From Mycolicibacterium confluentis (GTDB lineage: Bacteria > Actinomycetota > Actinomycetes > Mycobacteriales > Mycobacteriaceae), in the NCBI RefSeq assembly GCF_010729895.1, contig NZ_AP022612.1, positions 5,766,001 to 5,830,000 of the forward strand: 64,000 bases of DNA. Direction: 5' to 3'. Positions 15,360-23,222 of the stretch are shown one piece after another (position 1 is the stretch's first letter; every line of letters begins with the position of its first letter). The position numbers were made by a program, and so were the translations under genes. The notes beneath the pieces are model-generated. The model was not told the origin of the DNA and ran no database searches. It worked only from the letters and a program-made list of their open reading frames with translations.

Positions 15360-15878
15360 TCAGTCACAGGCGGCAGCGACGCTCTCGGCGGCGTCGTCGA
15401 TTTGGTTCTCCTGGCCGTCCATCTCGGGATCGCTGGCCGCACCGTGCCCGGCCGAATACTCCAGCAGCGCGCCGGTGTAACTACGGATCGCCTGCGCGAC
15501 GTTGGTCGGGGTGTTGGGTGGGATCAGGCTTTCGAGTTGGGCGGCGATCGCGCTCTCGGCCTGCGTGAACCGATTGGTGGCCGCCTTCACGGCCCGGTCG
15601 CCCCATTGCCAATGGGGTCCGCTGACGACAGGCAGCCATTCGGCGTAGGCCTGCTCCCATTGGCGGCTGGCCACTCGATAGGCGTTGCAGGCCTGATCGC
15701 GGGCCTGCTCCTCGGTGAGAGTGTGCGACACATTCACCTCGGGCCGATGCTGCGCGGTGATCAGCCCGGACATCACCCACCCCGCCAGCGCGGAGACCAC
15801 CACAAGCACGAGCAGGCCCGCGGAGAGCAGCAGCCAGTGCCGATGCTGCGAACCGTAGGGCGTCTCATCACGGGTCAC
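15360..15878 (-). CDS. Single-pass membrane protein, unknown function
   Basis: The 172-residue protein has a membrane segment (LLLSAGLLVLVVVSALAG) near residues 15-35 and an exported helical domain with cysteines in QACNAY and at the C-terminal ACD. This architecture is common among mycobacterial membrane-anchored proteins of unknown role. GTG 15878 overlaps the stop of the upstream ligase-like gene as GTGA, so the two are translationally coupled. An ATG at 15896 is possible. Confidence 0.7.
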   Translation of the reverse strand: MTRDETPYGSQHRHWLLLSAGLLVLVVVSALAGWVMSGLITAQHRPEVNVSHTLTEEQARDQACNAYRVASRQWEQAYAEWLPVVSGPHWQWGDRAVKAATNRFTQAESAIAAQLESLIPPNTPTNVAQAIRSYTGALLEYSAGHGAASDPEMDGQENQIDDAAESVAAACD

Positions 15879-17356
15879 GCCGCGGGACCGTCCCACGAGT
15901 GCACAGGCTCATTGCTGTGCATGCGCTCGCAGTACAGGCGCAGCATGTCGGCCAGGGCCTGCGGCCGTGTCAGCCCGCGTTCCTGCAGTGCGTGCACGGT
16001 GCCCACCTGCCAGGCCGCACCCGTGCGACCGGACTTGGCGCGGTGCTCGATGACACCGAGGTAGCGGTCCCGAACCTCCCCGGCCACGCCGCGGCGCTGC
16101 AGGCCCTCGTGTGCCAGTGGCAGCAGGTGGCGCAGCACCAGTTCCTGCGGCGTCACGGCGCCCAGTCCCGGCCAGTACAGTTCGGCCTCCATCCCGTACC
16201 GGGCCGCGTTGTGGAAATTGTGTTCTGCCGCAGCGAAACTCATCTTGGTCCAGACTGGGCGATCGTCGTCGGAGAGCATGCGCATCATTCCGTGGTAGAA
16301 CGCCGCGTTGGCCATCATGTCGACGACCGTCGGCCCCGCGGGCAGCACGCGGTTCTCCACTCGAAGGTGGGGACGTCCCCCCACGACGTCGTACACCGGG
16401 CGGTTCCATCGGTAGACCGTGCCGTTGTGCAGGCGTAGTTCCGACAGCGTCGGGGTGCGACCGGCGGCCAGTTCGGCCTGCGGATCCTCGTCGGACAGTT
16501 CGGGCAGCAGGGACGGGAAGAAGCGCACGTTCTCCTCGAACAGATCGAAGATCGAGGTGATCCAGCGCTCCCCGAACCAGACTCGGGGTCGAACGCCCTG
16601 CGCTTTGAGTTCCTCTGGGCGGGTGTCGGTGGCCTGCGCGAACAGTTCGATGCGCGTCTCGGCCCACAGCTGGTGGCCGAAGAAGAACGGCGAGTTGGCG
16701 CCCAGGGCCAACTGGGGTCCGGCCAGAGCCTGCGCGGCATTCCAGCTGGCGGCGAAGTCGGCCGGGGACACCTGGGAATGCAGTTGCATGCTGGTGCAGG
16801 CCGATTCGGGGGCGATGGTCTCGGCGAGCATCGACAACCGCTCCGGTCCGTCGATGTCGATCACGATGTCCTCACCGCGTGCCGTGAAGATCGAATCGTT
16901 GAGGGCACGGTAGCGGATCGACTCGCTCATCCAGTCCTGCGCGAGGTGTTCGGGCATCAGGGTCGGCAGGATGCCGATCATCACGATGTGGGCACCGCTT
17001 CGGTTGGCCTTCTCCTCTGCCGCGTTGAGACTGGCTCGGACCTCCCCCTCGAGTTCCAGTGCCGAACGTCCCGGCAGTGGTCGCGGCGGGACGTTGAATT
17101 CGATGTTGTAGGCGCCCAATTCGGTCTGATAGGCCGGGTCGGCGATCGAGGCGAGCACATCGGTGTTGCTCATCGCGGGCTGATAGTCACCGTCGACGAG
17201 GTTGCACTCGATCTCCATGCCGGTCAGGGGCCTGTCGATGTCGAAACTGGACTGCGCCAGCATGGTCTCGAAAACATCCAGGCACAGCTGGACCTTTCGG
17301 CGGTACTCCTGGCGATGTGCGCGGGTGTAGTGCGTCGCCTTGACCTCTTCGCCCAC
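15875..17356 (-). CDS. Glutamate-cysteine-ligase-like carboxylate-amine ligase
   Basis: The 493-residue protein belongs to the GCS2/YbdK superfamily. LTGMEIECNLVDGDY near residue 45 and GAYNIEFNVPPRPL carry the acidic metal/ATP ligands. HLRVENRVLPAGPTVVD lies in the C-terminal half. It is longer than EgtA and corresponds by position to Rv3698. Its substrates are unknown; ligation of glutamate or another acid to an amine is expected. GTG 17356 has no Shine-Dalgarno sequence, but TAGCAT at 17363-17368 lies six bases upstream, which suggests a leaderless start. It overlaps the following membrane protein gene by four bases. Confidence 0.85.
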   Translation of the reverse strand: MGEEVKATHYTRAHRQEYRRKVQLCLDVFETMLAQSSFDIDRPLTGMEIECNLVDGDYQPAMSNTDVLASIADPAYQTELGAYNIEFNVPPRPLPGRSALELEGEVRASLNAAEEKANRSGAHIVMIGILPTLMPEHLAQDWMSESIRYRALNDSIFTARGEDIVIDIDGPERLSMLAETIAPESACTSMQLHSQVSPADFAASWNAAQALAGPQLALGANSPFFFGHQLWAETRIELFAQATDTRPEELKAQGVRPRVWFGERWITSIFDLFEENVRFFPSLLPELSDEDPQAELAAGRTPTLSELRLHNGTVYRWNRPVYDVVGGRPHLRVENRVLPAGPTVVDMMANAAFYHGMMRMLSDDDRPVWTKMSFAAAEHNFHNAARYGMEAELYWPGLGAVTPQELVLRHLLPLAHEGLQRRGVAGEVRDRYLGVIEHRAKSGRTGAAWQVGTVHALQERGLTRPQALADMLRLYCERMHSNEPVHSWDGPAA

Positions 17357-17516: not shown

Positions 17517-17567
17517 TTCATTGCTTCTTCAAGCATTTTCCCGTCGACCACCGGAAAGGTTTCGCGC

Positions 17568-20500
17568 ATGGGTCAAGAGCCGACGATGTCGCCGCACTCC
17601 CAAACACGTTCAGGGAAGCCGAGAGGTCGCCGTCGCCGGCAGCGTCGCATCGAGCCCTACGCCTGGTTGGGCGCGGGTGCGGTCACCTTGGGGGTCGGGG
17701 CGGCACTGACCCTCGGCGCCGGAGTCGCCTGCGCCGAGACCGACGGGGACTCCGCGTCAGCGCCGTCGGCACAGCGTGGCGGCGACGCCTCCGGCTCGAC
17801 CGCCGACCGCACGCGCAGCAGGGCGAACAGACTGTTCACCGCCGGGCCCGCCCCCGCCGCCGGTGACTCCGGGGTGTCCAACCGCATCGCGAACAGGGCT
17901 GCCGCTCTGGAGAAGTCGGCATCGAAGTCGGACGACGACTCCGTACCCGCTTCGGCGAAGCGGTCGACCGCACGGCCGACTCGCCTCGCCGATTCCGAGA
18001 TGTCCAGCCGGATAGCGAAGAGGCTTGCAGCCCTGGAGAAATCGGGTTCGGACTCGGGCGTGGACACTCTCGCCGCATCGGTGAGAGCAACGTCCGTGAA
18101 TTCCGTTGCCTCACTGCCTGCCCCGGCAGCGGCGCTCAAACCACCAGCCCTGCCGACTCCCGAGGACGTCGTCGGCTTCTTCTTCGGTGATGGCACGGCC
18201 ACGCGCCCCAACGGCGGCATCATCATCGGCAACGGCTACTCGTGGACCGCCGACACATGCCCCACCGTCGCCTGCAAGGGTGGCAACGGCGGACTGATCG
18301 GCAACGGCGGCGCAGGATTCAACGGCGGAAACGGCGGTAACGCCGGGCTGTTCGGCAACGGGGGAGACGGCGGCGCCGGCGTGGCGTGGGTCAACGACGG
18401 CGCCGGTGGCCACGGTGGCCGGGCGATCCTGTGGGGCCACGGCGGTGCAGGCGGCGCGGCAACCACCGGTGCGATCGGCGGGCGGGGCGGCACCGCTGGC
18501 CTCTTCTACGGCGACGGCGGTGATGGCGGCCGCGGCGGCAACTCGGTGCCGGCGGGCTCCACCGGCGGTCGTGGCGGCAATGGTGGTGACACCGGCCTCT
18601 TCTCGTGGTGGGGCGCCGCAGGGAACGGCGGCGCCGGTGGTGCCGCCACGAATGGTGGGGCAGGGGGTGACGGCGGAAGCGGCGGCCTGTTCGCGGTGTT
18701 CGCCAATGGCGGTGCCGGCGGCGCGGGCGGTGTCGGACCCCACGGCGGTGCCGGGGGCGACGGCGGCAACGGCGGCCTCTGGTTCGGTGACGGTGGGGAC
18801 GGCGGCACTGGCGGATACGGCGGTGGTGACGGCGGGAACGGCGGCAGCGTCGGAATGTTCTCTCTGCTCGGAAGGGGCGGTGACGGTGGCAGCGGCGGCT
18901 TCGGCCAGATCGGCCGAGTCGGTGTCAACGGTGGCACTCCCGGCGAGCGCGGTGGCGATGGTCTGCCCGGTGGACCCGGCGGAACTGGTGGAAACGGCGG
19001 GAACGGCAGTTGGTTCCTCGGCATGGGCGGCGACGGGGGCTCCGGTGGCGCTGGTGGGACCGGCGGCAACGGAGGTAAGGGCGCCAGCGGCACGAGCGTC
19101 AGCATCGGTGACGGCGGCGCTGCCGGGGACGGCGGTACGGGCGGCGATGGAGGCGTCGGCGGCGCCCAGGGCGGTGAGGCCGGGGTCGGACGCTACCTCT
19201 TCGTGCTCGCGTCGAATGGTCGGGCCGGAACCAGCGGTGCAGGCGGCGCGGGCGGCCAGGGAGGTGTCGGCGGTGAGGGCGGCGACACCACAGACGTCGA
19301 CGGGCGCGGCGGCGCGGGCGGTGACGGAGGCAGGGGTGGCCGGGGTGGCCCCGGTGGTGCAGCGACCGCGATCTCGGCTGCCGGTGCCGGTGGCGCCGGC
19401 GGTCAGGGCGGCACCGCCGGAGGGGGCGGCACCACACGGTCAGGGCTCGGTGGGGCCGCTGGTCTCGGCGGAGAAGGTGGTGACGGCGGCGCCGGTGGCG
19501 CCGGGTCGGCCACCCAGGTCAGCGGTGACGGCGGCACCGGTGGTGCTGGCGGGGTCGGCGGAATCGGTGGGGCAGGCACGACCGGCGCCGACGGAGGCAC
19601 CGGTGGTGACGGCGGCGATGGCGCGGGTGCTGGTGCTGACGGCGGAGCGGGCGTCGGTGACCCCGGCTACGGCGGCGCAGGCGGTGCGGGTGGCGCCGGC
19701 GGCACCGGATCGTCGACCGACGGCGATGACGGCGACGACGGCCGCAACGGCTCAGCCGGAACCGGCAACGCCGCGACCGTACAGCGGGCCACCACGCCGG
19801 GTGGGCTCTTCGCGGGCCTGGTGGACCAGCTCAACTACATCCTGTTCAACCGGCCGCCCACAGTGGACGCGACCCAGAGCCCTGCGACCGGACCCGACAA
19901 GGAGATCTCCGGCGACCTGAATGGCAGCTCCAACAACGGATTCGCCCCCACCTACTCTCTTGGAGAGGGGCCTCGGTACGGCACCGTCGACCTGGACCCG
20001 GACACCGGGAAGTACACCTACACGCCGGACTCGACCTTGATCCAGTCCGGGATCACCGACAGCTTCACCGTCGTGATCAACAACGGGTCGAGGGCCAAGC
20101 TGCCCGGCCTGTTGGGTGGGGTGCAGCAGTGGCTGCACTCGCTGGCGATCCGGATCGGGCTCGCGTCCCCCGACACCGCGGAGGAGAAGGTCGTGCTGGT
20201 GGTGCGCGGTGACGGCATGTACGGCGACCTGAGCAACGCCGTGTACTGGGTGAAACAGAGCTACTTCAACTGTGTGCTGATGGCGTCGGCGATGGCGGTG
20301 GCCCAGGTCACCGGCGAACCGACTCCCGCCGAGGCTCTGATGGTGGAGATCGCGAAAACCTCTGACAGCGTGGAGACTCCCGGGCAGAAGATGTATCTGG
20401 ACGAGAACATCGAAGACGGTGTGGCCGAGGCCGACGCGGTGGTGCTGATGGAGACCAACTTCGGTGTCAAGGCCACCCTCACCAAGTACAACACCGTCGA

Positions 20501-20861
20501 CGACGACGGCAACGTCACCGCGGCGACGCTGGTGGACGGGCAGCGCGCCCTCAGCGATGCCGAGGCGGCGTTGCAGCAGGGCAAGGCCATCATTGCCTTC
20601 GTCAACAGTTCCGTGATCTGGAATGCCGCCCACGGTATGGAAGCCTCGGGTACACCGAACTACTTCAACTCCGACCACGCGGTGGTGGTGATCGCAGTCG
20701 ACCTGAAGAAGGGTCTGGTGTACCTCAACGACAGCGGTCCAGAGTTCGGTCAGGGTATGGCGGTGCCGATCGGCGCCTTCATGAATGCCTGGCAGAGCAA
20801 CGATTACGAGACGATCGTGGTCGAGAAGGCCGGGGCCCAATCGGGCCCGGTGGCGGCCTGA
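17568..20861 (+). CDS. PGRS-like glycine-rich exported protein with C39-like peptidase domain
   Basis: The protein has about 1097 residues. It has an arginine-rich N-terminus, a signal or anchor segment ending in GVACA (about residue 56), and a linker with repeated [20 protein letters not shown] units. Residues about 235-735 consist of GGxGG/NGG repeats like the PGRS region of PE_PGRS proteins. A VCBS/cadherin-like beta domain follows (about 760-840). The C-terminal domain (about 885-1090) resembles C39-like papain-fold peptidases, with Gln897 and Cys902 in KQSYFNC, His1037 in [12 protein letters not shown], and Asn1054/Asp1055 in YLNDSGP. There is no PE domain. Start ATG 17568 has GGAAAGG nine bases upstream. 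The gene interrupts otherwise conserved order between the ligase-like gene and glpK. Confidence 0.85.
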
Positions 20862-20873
20862 ATCTGGCATGCC

Positions 20874-20906
20874 GGACGCACCCAGAGTCTCACTCTGGGT
20901 GCGTCC
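20874..20906. terminator. Bidirectional hairpin terminator between convergent genes
   Basis: GGACGCACCCAGAGT and ACTCTGGGTGCGTCC are perfect 15-base arms with a three-base loop. The right arm encodes the last codons of the convergent methyltransferase gene, which ends at 20890. The PGRS-like gene ends 12 bases to the left. Confidence 0.8.
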
Positions 20907-21639
20907 GCCGCGCCACCACGATCTGCGGTCCGGTGAGTCCGCCGCGCAACTTGACGTCGATGCTGGGATCCGCGTGCCGGGCCAGTGCCCGCAGCGCCGA
21001 CGGGCTGTAGCAGCGCAGTGAACTGATCACGCCGTCGTGCACGAAGGGGAGCACAGGCGCCCACGGCAGCATGGTCGCCAGGCGCAGCACATGCAGCGGT
21101 GCCGGCGGCCGGGGCAGATCGATGATCAGCAGTTGCCGCCCGACCCGGGTGCCCTCGGCGAAGACCCGTGCGGCCTGCCCGGGCGACAGATGGTGGAACG
21201 ACAGCGCGAACAGCACCAGGTCGAACGACGCGTCGGGGGCGTCGATGGCCGTCGCATCCATCTGGCGCACCGTGGCACGGGGCCGCGTCCCCAGATCTCC
21301 TGCCGCGATCCGGGCGACGGATTCGGGGTTGAGGTCGGTCACGGTCACCTCAGCAGTCGGGTGATCGTCGAGGATCAGCCGGGACACCGCGCCATGTCCG
21401 GCACCAAGTTCGAGGATCTTTGGATCGGGTACCGCAGCGACCAACTCCAGGGCCGTATGGGCGAACCGCTGATGGTTGCCGAACACCCGCCCGGTCCAGT
21501 CCAGCGCCGAGACCACCTGTCGCTTGACGTGGTCGTCGACATCGTCGCGGTCCAGGTATTCGAGTCGGTTGGTCTGCAGCAGGCGGTCCAGGCACGACGC
21601 GTCGAAGCCGCCCCGGGGCATCCGATCAATGTCGGTCAT
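20890..21639 (-). CDS. SAM-dependent methyltransferase
   Basis: The 249-residue protein has motif I ([11 protein letters not shown]), motif II ([10 protein letters not shown]), an acidic motif ([11 protein letters not shown]) and motif IV-like [11 protein letters not shown], as in UbiE/COQ5-type enzymes. ATG 21639 is chosen because AGGCAGG lies five bases upstream; ATGs farther out lack this. It diverges from glpK with 65 bases between start codons. The substrate is unknown. A link to lipid or quinone methylation is only a guess from the fold. Confidence 0.82.
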
Positions 21640-21704
21640 GTCTGCCTGCCTGCGGCCCATGTAGTCCATCATGGACGGTCGGAAGTGAATCCGGAGGAGA
21701 CACC

Positions 21705-23222
21705 TTGGCTGACTTTGTGGCGGCGATCGACCAGGGCACCACCAGCACGCGTGCGATGATCTTCGACCACGCCGGGCGTGAGATCGGGAGGCACCAACTC
21801 GAACACGAGCAGATCCTGCCGCAGGCGGGGTGGGTCGAACACAATCCCGTGGAGATCTGGGAACGCACGGTTTCGGTGCTGGTGTCGGTGCTCAACAACA
21901 CCGGGTTGCGGCCCTCTGACCTGGCGGCGCTCGGCATCACCAATCAACGCGAGACCGCACTGGTGTGGGATCGCCGGACGGGACGGCCCTTCTACAACGC
22001 GATTGTCTGGCAGGACACCCGCACCGACCGCATAGCGTCGGCGTTGGACCGCGACGGGCGCGGCGACGTCATCCGCACCAAGGCCGGTCTGCCGCCGGCC
22101 ACGTATTTCTCGGCCGGCAAGGTGCAGTGGATCCTGGAGAACATCGACGGTGTCCGTGAGGCCGCCGAACGCGGCGATGCGCTCTTCGGCACGGCCGACA
22201 CCTGGGTGCTGTGGAACCTCACCGGCGGTGCCCGCGGCGGCGTGCACGTCACCGACGTCACCAACGCGAGCCGCACCATGCTGATGAACCTGGAGACGCT
22301 CGACTGGGACGACGAACTGTTGTCGTTCTTCGGGATTCCCCGGCAGATGCTGCCCAGTATCGAGTCGTCCTCGGTGTCCGAGCCCTACGGCGTGGCCTTC
22401 GACAGCGGTCCGATCCGGGCGGAGATCCCGGTGACCGGCATCCTCGGTGACCAGCAGGCCGCGATGGTCGGGCAGGTGTGCCTTTCGGCCGGTGAGGCCA
22501 AGAACACCTATGGCACAGGCAATTTCCTGCTGCTCAACACCGGTGAGAAGATCGTGCGCTCGGGCAATGGCCTGCTCACCACGGTGTGCTACCGGTTCGG
22601 GGACGCCAAACCTGTGTACGCCCTGGAGGGTTCGATCGCTGTGACGGGTTCGGCGATCCAGTGGCTGCGCGATCAACTGGGGATCATCAGCGGGGCCGCA
22701 CAGAGTGAGGCGCTGGCCCGGCAGGTGGAGGACAACGGCGGCGTGTATTTCGTGCCGGCATTCTCGGGGCTGTTCGCACCGTATTGGCGTTCGGATGCCC
22801 GCGGCGCGATTGTCGGGCTGTCGCGGTTCAACACCAACGCGCATCTGGCTCGCGCTGCGCTGGAGGCGATCTGCTATCAGAGCCGCGATGTCGTAGACGC
22901 CATGGAGGCCGACTCCGGCGTGCACCTGGAGGTGCTCAAGGTCGACGGCGGCATCACCGCGAACGAGCTGTGCATGCAGATCCAGTCCGATGTGCTGGGC
23001 GTCGATGTGGTGAAACCCGTTGTCGCGGAGACGACTGCGCTCGGTGCGGCCTACGCCGCCGGGTTGGGTATCGGGTTCTGGTCGGATCCCGAAGAGCTGC
23101 GAGCCAACTGGCATGAGGACCGCCGCTGGTCACCGGAGTGGACCGATGACCAGCGGGCCAAGGGTTATGCGGGCTGGCAGAAAGCCGTCCAACGGACCCT
23201 GGACTGGGTGGACGTGGAGTGA
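21705..23222 (+). CDS. glpK: Glycerol kinase
   Basis: The 505-residue FGGY-family kinase phosphorylates glycerol to glycerol-3-phosphate. [16 protein letters not shown] is the N-terminal nucleotide-binding motif, [10 protein letters not shown] the substrate loop, [12 protein letters not shown] the hinge, and [15 protein letters not shown] the C-terminal FGGY signature. The start is a TTG at 21705 with GGAGGAGA at 21692-21699. A hairpin terminator follows the stop. Confidence 0.97.

Follow-up and report, generated by a model that had tools for sequence, protein, structure and literature searches.

The gene and its parts

A 64,000-nucleotide stretch of the Mycolicibacterium confluentis genome (contig NZ_AP022612.1, positions 5,766,001 to 5,830,000; hereafter the window, within which all positions are counted) contains a gene for a protein of 1097 residues, P0001, that combines a signal-like N-terminus, a glycine-rich PGRS region and a C-terminal domain with a predicted C39/papain-like fold. 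PGRS domains have been studied almost only as parts of the ESX-exported PE_PGRS proteins of pathogens; P0001 appears to have no PE domain, and neither do many related proteins described below. The gene and its parts are as follows, with the ratio of nonsynonymous to synonymous substitution rates (dN/dS) and the predicted local distance difference test score (pLDDT) given where they define a part:

17553..17559, forward strand: Shine-Dalgarno-like GGAAAGG, read from the sequence, ending 8 nucleotides before the ATG
17568..20861, forward strand: whole gene of P0001, 1097 amino acids, an open reading frame translated without inner stop
17568..17735, forward strand: residues 1-56, Arg-rich n-region, 18-residue hydrophobic core and AxA site (ACA followed by E), from the sequence and a dN/dS of 0.19
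17736..18152, forward strand: residues 57-195, linker, predicted disordered (pLDDT below 50 for residues 1-195; dN/dS 0.48)
18153..18335, forward strand: residues 196-256, PGRS entry motif whose pair Cys231/Cys236 is invariant in 21/21 full-length proteins
18276..19757, forward strand: residues 237-730, PGRS with a predicted fold and most of its hydrophobic loops in 237-551 (composition, AlphaFold2, PDB comparison)
19818..20177, forward strand: residues 751-870, helix and Big_9-type immunoglobulin-like (Ig-like) domain (module alignment, predicted structure, Pfam)
20202..20828, forward strand: residues 879-1087, C39/papain-like domain (predicted structure, PDB comparison, Pfam)
20256..20258, forward strand: Gln897, presumed oxyanion-hole residue (32/32 modules; 54/55 domains)
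20271..20273, forward strand: Cys902, presumed nucleophile (32/32 modules; 52/55 domains)
20676..20678, forward strand: His1037, presumed general base (32/32 modules; 54/54 occupied positions and one gap in the 55-domain set)
20727..20732, forward strand: Asn1054-Asp1055, presumed third catalytic residue (32/32 modules; 54/54 occupied positions and one gap)

The initial annotation of the locus had read the same frame, with Gln897, Cys902, His1037, Asn1054 and Asp1055 at these positions. An orthologue from Mycobacterium sp. ACS4331 (locus L010) is 91% identical to P0001 across the C-terminal 239 residues, and dN/dS between the two genes is 0.21 (0.19 in residues 1-56, 0.48 in the linker, 0.15 in the PGRS, 0.15 in the Ig part and 0.23 in the C39 part). 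Because of this identity and this ratio the frame is not a product of chance: as judged by comparison of sequences, the gene is real and under selection. An NCBIfam scan of P0001 gave no matches, and a search of plasmid DNA yielded partial matches (60-80% identity) in 25 records, with 80% of the gene covered in none.

The C-terminal domain and the proteins that share it

A papain-fold peptidase preceded by a beta domain had been proposed for the C-terminus. When the predicted structure was compared with PDB structures, a papain/C39-like fold was found, with matches that include 3erv (Peptidase_C39_2) and the C39 domains of PCAT1 and ComA. The structural alignments would place Cys902 and His1037 within reach of each other. 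This assignment rests on the comparison of models because PDB sequence searches with P0001, with alignment A1 (whose rows L011 and L017 are identical in sequence) and with A3 gave no convincing relative; we regard the predicted fold as almost certain. The Cys-His-Asn/Asp set is invariant in the 32 modules aligned. The beta domain is also present and is probably of the Big_9 Ig type, as PF17963 matches 15 of the 32 modules, P0001 itself not being one of them. The Peptidase_C39_2 profile (PF13529, cut-off 24) scores 26.1 on the domain of P0001 alone and 24.0 when the Ig domain is included.

Several observations speak against a simple peptidase. On full-length P0001 the PF13529 score falls to 20.1, below the cut-off; three of 55 domains have no Cys at the position of Cys902 (two Ala, one Ser), all of them outside the PGRS group; BtrH_N gives a weak match in 3/27 domains; and the same fold houses proteins that are not simple peptidases, such as the phytochelatin synthase Alr0975 and CtaG. 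One explanation is that the domain transfers acyl or amide groups, or serves in binding, instead of cutting peptides. We consider this the less likely reading, with a weight that deserves attention. We hold an active thiol hydrolase to be likely, and P0001 would probably be a surface peptidase.

C39 domains of the P0001 type are present in 162/297 genomes of the same genus. A draw across the order gave 13 of 22 same-genus genomes (that of M. confluentis included) versus 3 of 178 others, and these three matches are partial. Among 40 loci, 20 carry a full PGRS (L043-L062), one (L066) has its PGRS on a frame that starts within the repeat, and the remaining 19, some of them arranged in tandem, lack a PGRS. 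Shorter proteins with a signal and a C39-like domain, on frames of about 245-510 amino acids and several of them in tandem, were also noticed (L077-L082). In a midpoint-rooted tree of 55 C39 domains, restricted to matches of at least 150 query residues, the 29 PGRS-bearing domains lie on one side of a single branch (99/96), a pattern that fits a single fusion of PGRS and C39.

The PGRS itself is found more widely. A 72-residue query taken from the entry motif matched at least 50 of 148 same-genus genomes; the query contains the Cys pair and favours matches that have it. We chose 80 regions among the matches listed, leaving out the C39-bearing loci found earlier, and read 83 PGRS frames from them. 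The regions come from 33 of the 50 matching genomes, for the most part those with good assemblies. More than 100 residues follow the PGRS in 19 of these frames, as measured with a glycine window, and the other 64 lack such a part. Ten of the 19 C-terminal parts match a named Pfam domain above cut-off with a stretch of their own, and one (L120) is a C39 domain by alignment; for the rest Pfam gave nothing, or matches without a significant stretch. The ten are:

L155 (twice): PE-PGRS_C aspartyl peptidase
L148 (E 3e-20) and L158 (E 5e-23): TNT
L129 and L138: NHL repeats
L178 and L179: Calx-beta with GH5
L145 and L177: Ig repeats

The diversity of these sister proteins, with TNT in two of them and an aspartyl peptidase in two more, admits the explanation that P0001 is a released protein with a role in bacterial competition, its C-terminus being a variable effector domain. 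However, the layout of PGRS, Ig and C39 domains makes up one stable group, and we find competition unlikely.

The PE-PGRS_C domain occurs in three N-terminal layouts. Pfam analysis of whole proteins found PE, PGRS and PE-PGRS_C in L211 and L212, which are classical PE+PGRS proteins of this genus; both L155 proteins have PGRS and PE-PGRS_C without PE; and L207, L209 and L210 carry PE-PGRS_C alone, behind N-termini that resemble signal peptides. No PE-PGRS_C domain was detected on P0001 or elsewhere in its genome.

The PGRS region, the N-terminus and the surroundings

The glycine repeat of about 500 residues had been interpreted as a wall-spanning spacer. The repeat is as described: Gly makes up 0.36-0.54 of each 50-residue block between residues 251 and 750, and P0001 contains Gly-Gly 97 times. 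A long Gly-rich stretch that separates the signal from the enzyme would also suit a flexible, wall-crossing spacer. The remaining evidence does not, however, support the spacer. In an AlphaFold2 model based on 21 full-length sequences, pLDDT per block is 71-95, mostly 80-95, over residues 200-730 and stays below 50 in residues 1-195; the predicted-disordered stretch is the linker (57-195), not the PGRS. PGRS length is 544-593 residues in 20/20 relatives (L043-L062, 40-residue glycine window), and 499/499 PGRS codons align without gaps to the orthologue, with the low dN/dS given above. The stretch 237-551 (315 residues) contains 52 hydrophobic residues, the following 184 residues contain 10, and 29 close hydrophobic pairs are found versus 12.0 in shuffles (0/2000 reach 29). 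The top PDB match of the predicted PGRS is 7jjv, a bundle of nine polyproline-II helices (E 4e-4), with a low TM-score (at most 0.34), and glycine content may contribute to the match.

Besides that low TM-score, further values count against a folded PGRS in P0001. The full-length model has a mean pLDDT of 73.9 and a predicted TM-score of 0.54, and the Pfam PGRS profile (PF21526) gives 17 bits on full-length P0001 versus a cut-off of 27; glycine composition and predicted fold agree with a PGRS. On the model, the region fits the "sail" proposed for PE_PGRS proteins, as set out in the accessible part of PMC9436101, better than a loose spacer, which we hold to be improbable.

Transporter C39 domains cut after a double glycine, and the peptidase of P0001 might likewise cleave Gly-Gly bonds, whether in the P0001 repeat or in the PGRS of another protein. 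The abundance of such bonds and the structural matches to PCAT1 and ComA favour this possibility, and PecA, itself a PE_PGRS surface protease, cleaves itself and other PE_PGRS proteins according to the accessible part of PMC6819658. A tightly folded PGRS should nevertheless resist cutting, and we give Gly-Gly processing little weight.

A signal segment and the absence of a PE domain had both been anticipated by the initial annotation, and both were upheld. Signal peptides were judged by simple rules rather than by a dedicated predictor, and by these rules the N-terminus of P0001 is signal-like and 78 of the 83 PGRS frames pass, versus 16.8 in shuffles. Of the five that fail, one (L130) is truncated at the 5' end, and in each of the other four a hydrophobic segment is visible by eye. 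A signal segment of the form [FY][VI]GR[VI]G[AG]LAVA[LM]G recurs in the M. confluentis genome (7 matches at E <1e-4, L195-L201), twice on PGRS proteins and otherwise on different exported proteins. The use of simple rules and the weak resemblance of the P0001 signal to this segment (E 0.86) tell against export by a signal peptide, a route that we still consider very likely from the sequence features. A lipoprotein was considered and rejected for want of a conserved lipobox: the ACS4331 orthologue has Tyr at the position of Cys55. In 12 PGRS-C39 loci out of 20 (L043-L045, L047-L050, L055, L056, L058-L060) the motif LP[VA]EFGG can be seen by eye ahead of the hydrophobic core, and it may be part of an extended signal.

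Pfam detected no PE domain on P0001, nor on any of 21 full-length proteins that include it. The GRPLI motif that would precede a PGRS is lacking in P0001, whose entry is a different motif with Cys. Of the 83 frames, 82 have a Cys pair close to where the PGRS begins, the remaining PGRS having 13 Cys in 44,462 residues. In the M. confluentis genome a six-frame PF00934 search gave a single match, a 104-residue frame at C1:4523026, away from the P0001 gene, and this search rules out a PE domain masked by a late start codon. A PE search extended to 41 genomes, among them the 33 of the regions, gave 113 matches (1-8 per genome), none within the 80 PGRS regions and the nearest 23 kb from a region edge. 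Five of the 20 PGRS-C39 regions (G032, G178, G172, G156, G151) lie outside this 41-genome search, and their proteins are covered by the Pfam scan of 21. That P0001 is a PE_PGRS protein whose PE was missed through the choice of start codon or recently lost could be argued from the shared PGRS and from PE-PGRS_C in sister proteins, but it is highly improbable given that both searches were empty at the loci concerned and that the same profile does detect PE on L211 and L212. Hence P0001 itself can be regarded, with near certainty, as a protein without a PE domain.

The PE-free architecture proposed for a single protein was thus sustained, but its scope had been drawn too narrowly: to judge by these searches, the PE-free PGRS layout is common to many proteins with other C-termini or none. 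The M. confluentis genome has five PF21526 matches, and the three that were listed are above cut-off. A plasmid gene of Tsukamurella tyrosinosolvens (L213:1280-3433), annotated as "PGRS repeat-containing protein", encodes a PGRS above cut-off behind a signal-like start, and Pfam finds no PE in it. A frame of 2053 amino acids in M. confluentis (G000:C1:2921127; L195, L206) was also noticed. It has 64 N.G.GN repeats, which we take to be MPTR-like (Pfam Pentapeptide_2, E 9e-171), a signal-like N-terminus and no PPE domain by Pfam, and is a possible PPE-free counterpart.

The neighbours of the P0001 gene are:

15875..17356, reverse strand: presumably a carboxylate-amine ligase-like gene, upstream and on the opposite strand
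20890..21672, reverse strand: presumably a methyltransferase-like gene, downstream
21705..23222, forward strand: presumably a glycerol kinase-like gene (glpK)

P0001 had been said to interrupt a conserved gene order, and this is borne out where the order is visible. Among 22 glpK loci of relatives, the ligase gene lies at most 1.5 kb from glpK in 11, with the methyltransferase gene between them in 4 of these; in the other 11 the flank examined contains no ligase gene, and order was judged in the first 11 only. A PGRS-C39 gene is found in none of the 22. In ACS4331 it sits between ligase and glpK, and tblastn gave no matches for the methyltransferase at that locus; a short start resembling the methyltransferase gene can be seen by eye at L010:8720-8939. 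The simplest reading of these gene orders is that the P0001 gene was inserted.

A putative surface enzyme and its meaning

We propose that a Sec-type signal peptide carries P0001 over the inner membrane, with cleavage close to residue 56. The linker, predicted disordered, would then lead into the PGRS domain, folded as a flat sandwich of polyglycine-II helices and capped by Cys231 and Cys236, probably as a disulfide. The hydrophobic loops of the PGRS may lie within the mycomembrane, an arrangement already put forward for PE_PGRS proteins; we hold such anchoring to be slightly more likely than not. The Ig-like domain would present the C39/papain-like domain, a thiol hydrolase and most likely a peptidase, to proteins or peptides of the cell surface. 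Taken as a whole, a surface enzyme with non-type-VII export, a folded PGRS and an Ig-presented thiol hydrolase seems to us a reasonably likely reading of the models.

Known systems share parts of this design. PecA, PE_PGRS35 and PE_PGRS16 likewise join a PGRS platform to a C-terminal protease-type domain, and the aspartyl-peptidase domain of the PE_PGRS16 type, PE-PGRS_C, is the one borne by the two PE-free L155 proteins. P0001 differs in having a signal-like N-terminus where PE_PGRS proteins have PE, a Cys-pair motif where the PGRS entry of L211 and L212 reads GRPLIGDG..GAPGTG, and a presumed cysteine active site where the PecA type is aspartic. With Peptidase_C39_2 (e.g. 3erv) the P0001 domain shares fold and residue order, and taken alone it exceeds the Pfam cut-off; unlike that family, it is joined to Ig and PGRS domains and is mostly mycobacterial. 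The C39 domains of PCAT and ComA transporters have the same core fold (root-mean-square deviation 2.2), whereas Pfam finds no ABC (ATP-binding cassette) transporter domain on P0001.

PE-free PGRS proteins are many and hardly described. The accessible part of a 2025 review (PMC11939664) reports that M. smegmatis and related Mycolicibacterium have PGRS proteins and remarks that their PE domain needs confirmation; beyond this open remark, our literature search found nothing on PE-free PGRS proteins or on mycobacterial C39 domains with PGRS. Those proteins and P0001 have in common a PGRS in non-pathogenic mycobacteria. The review, as far as accessible, does not settle the nature of the N-terminus; for the proteins described above we interpret it as a signal peptide and have charted the C-terminal parts.

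A tentative and quite possible extension is that PGRS proteins are a broad class of signal-peptide, Cys-pair-capped surface platforms of environmental mycobacteria, some with exchangeable enzymes, and that the PE_PGRS proteins of pathogens are a later branch in which PE replaced the signal peptide. The aspartyl-peptidase domain, with its three types of head, offers a natural comparison for the origin of the PE_PGRS family. If environmental mycobacteria do carry signal-peptide PGRS enzymes on their surface, this would bear on the question raised in the accessible part of PMC11939664 about M. smegmatis and its relatives, and PGRS function would become accessible in harmless laboratory strains and separable from type VII secretion.
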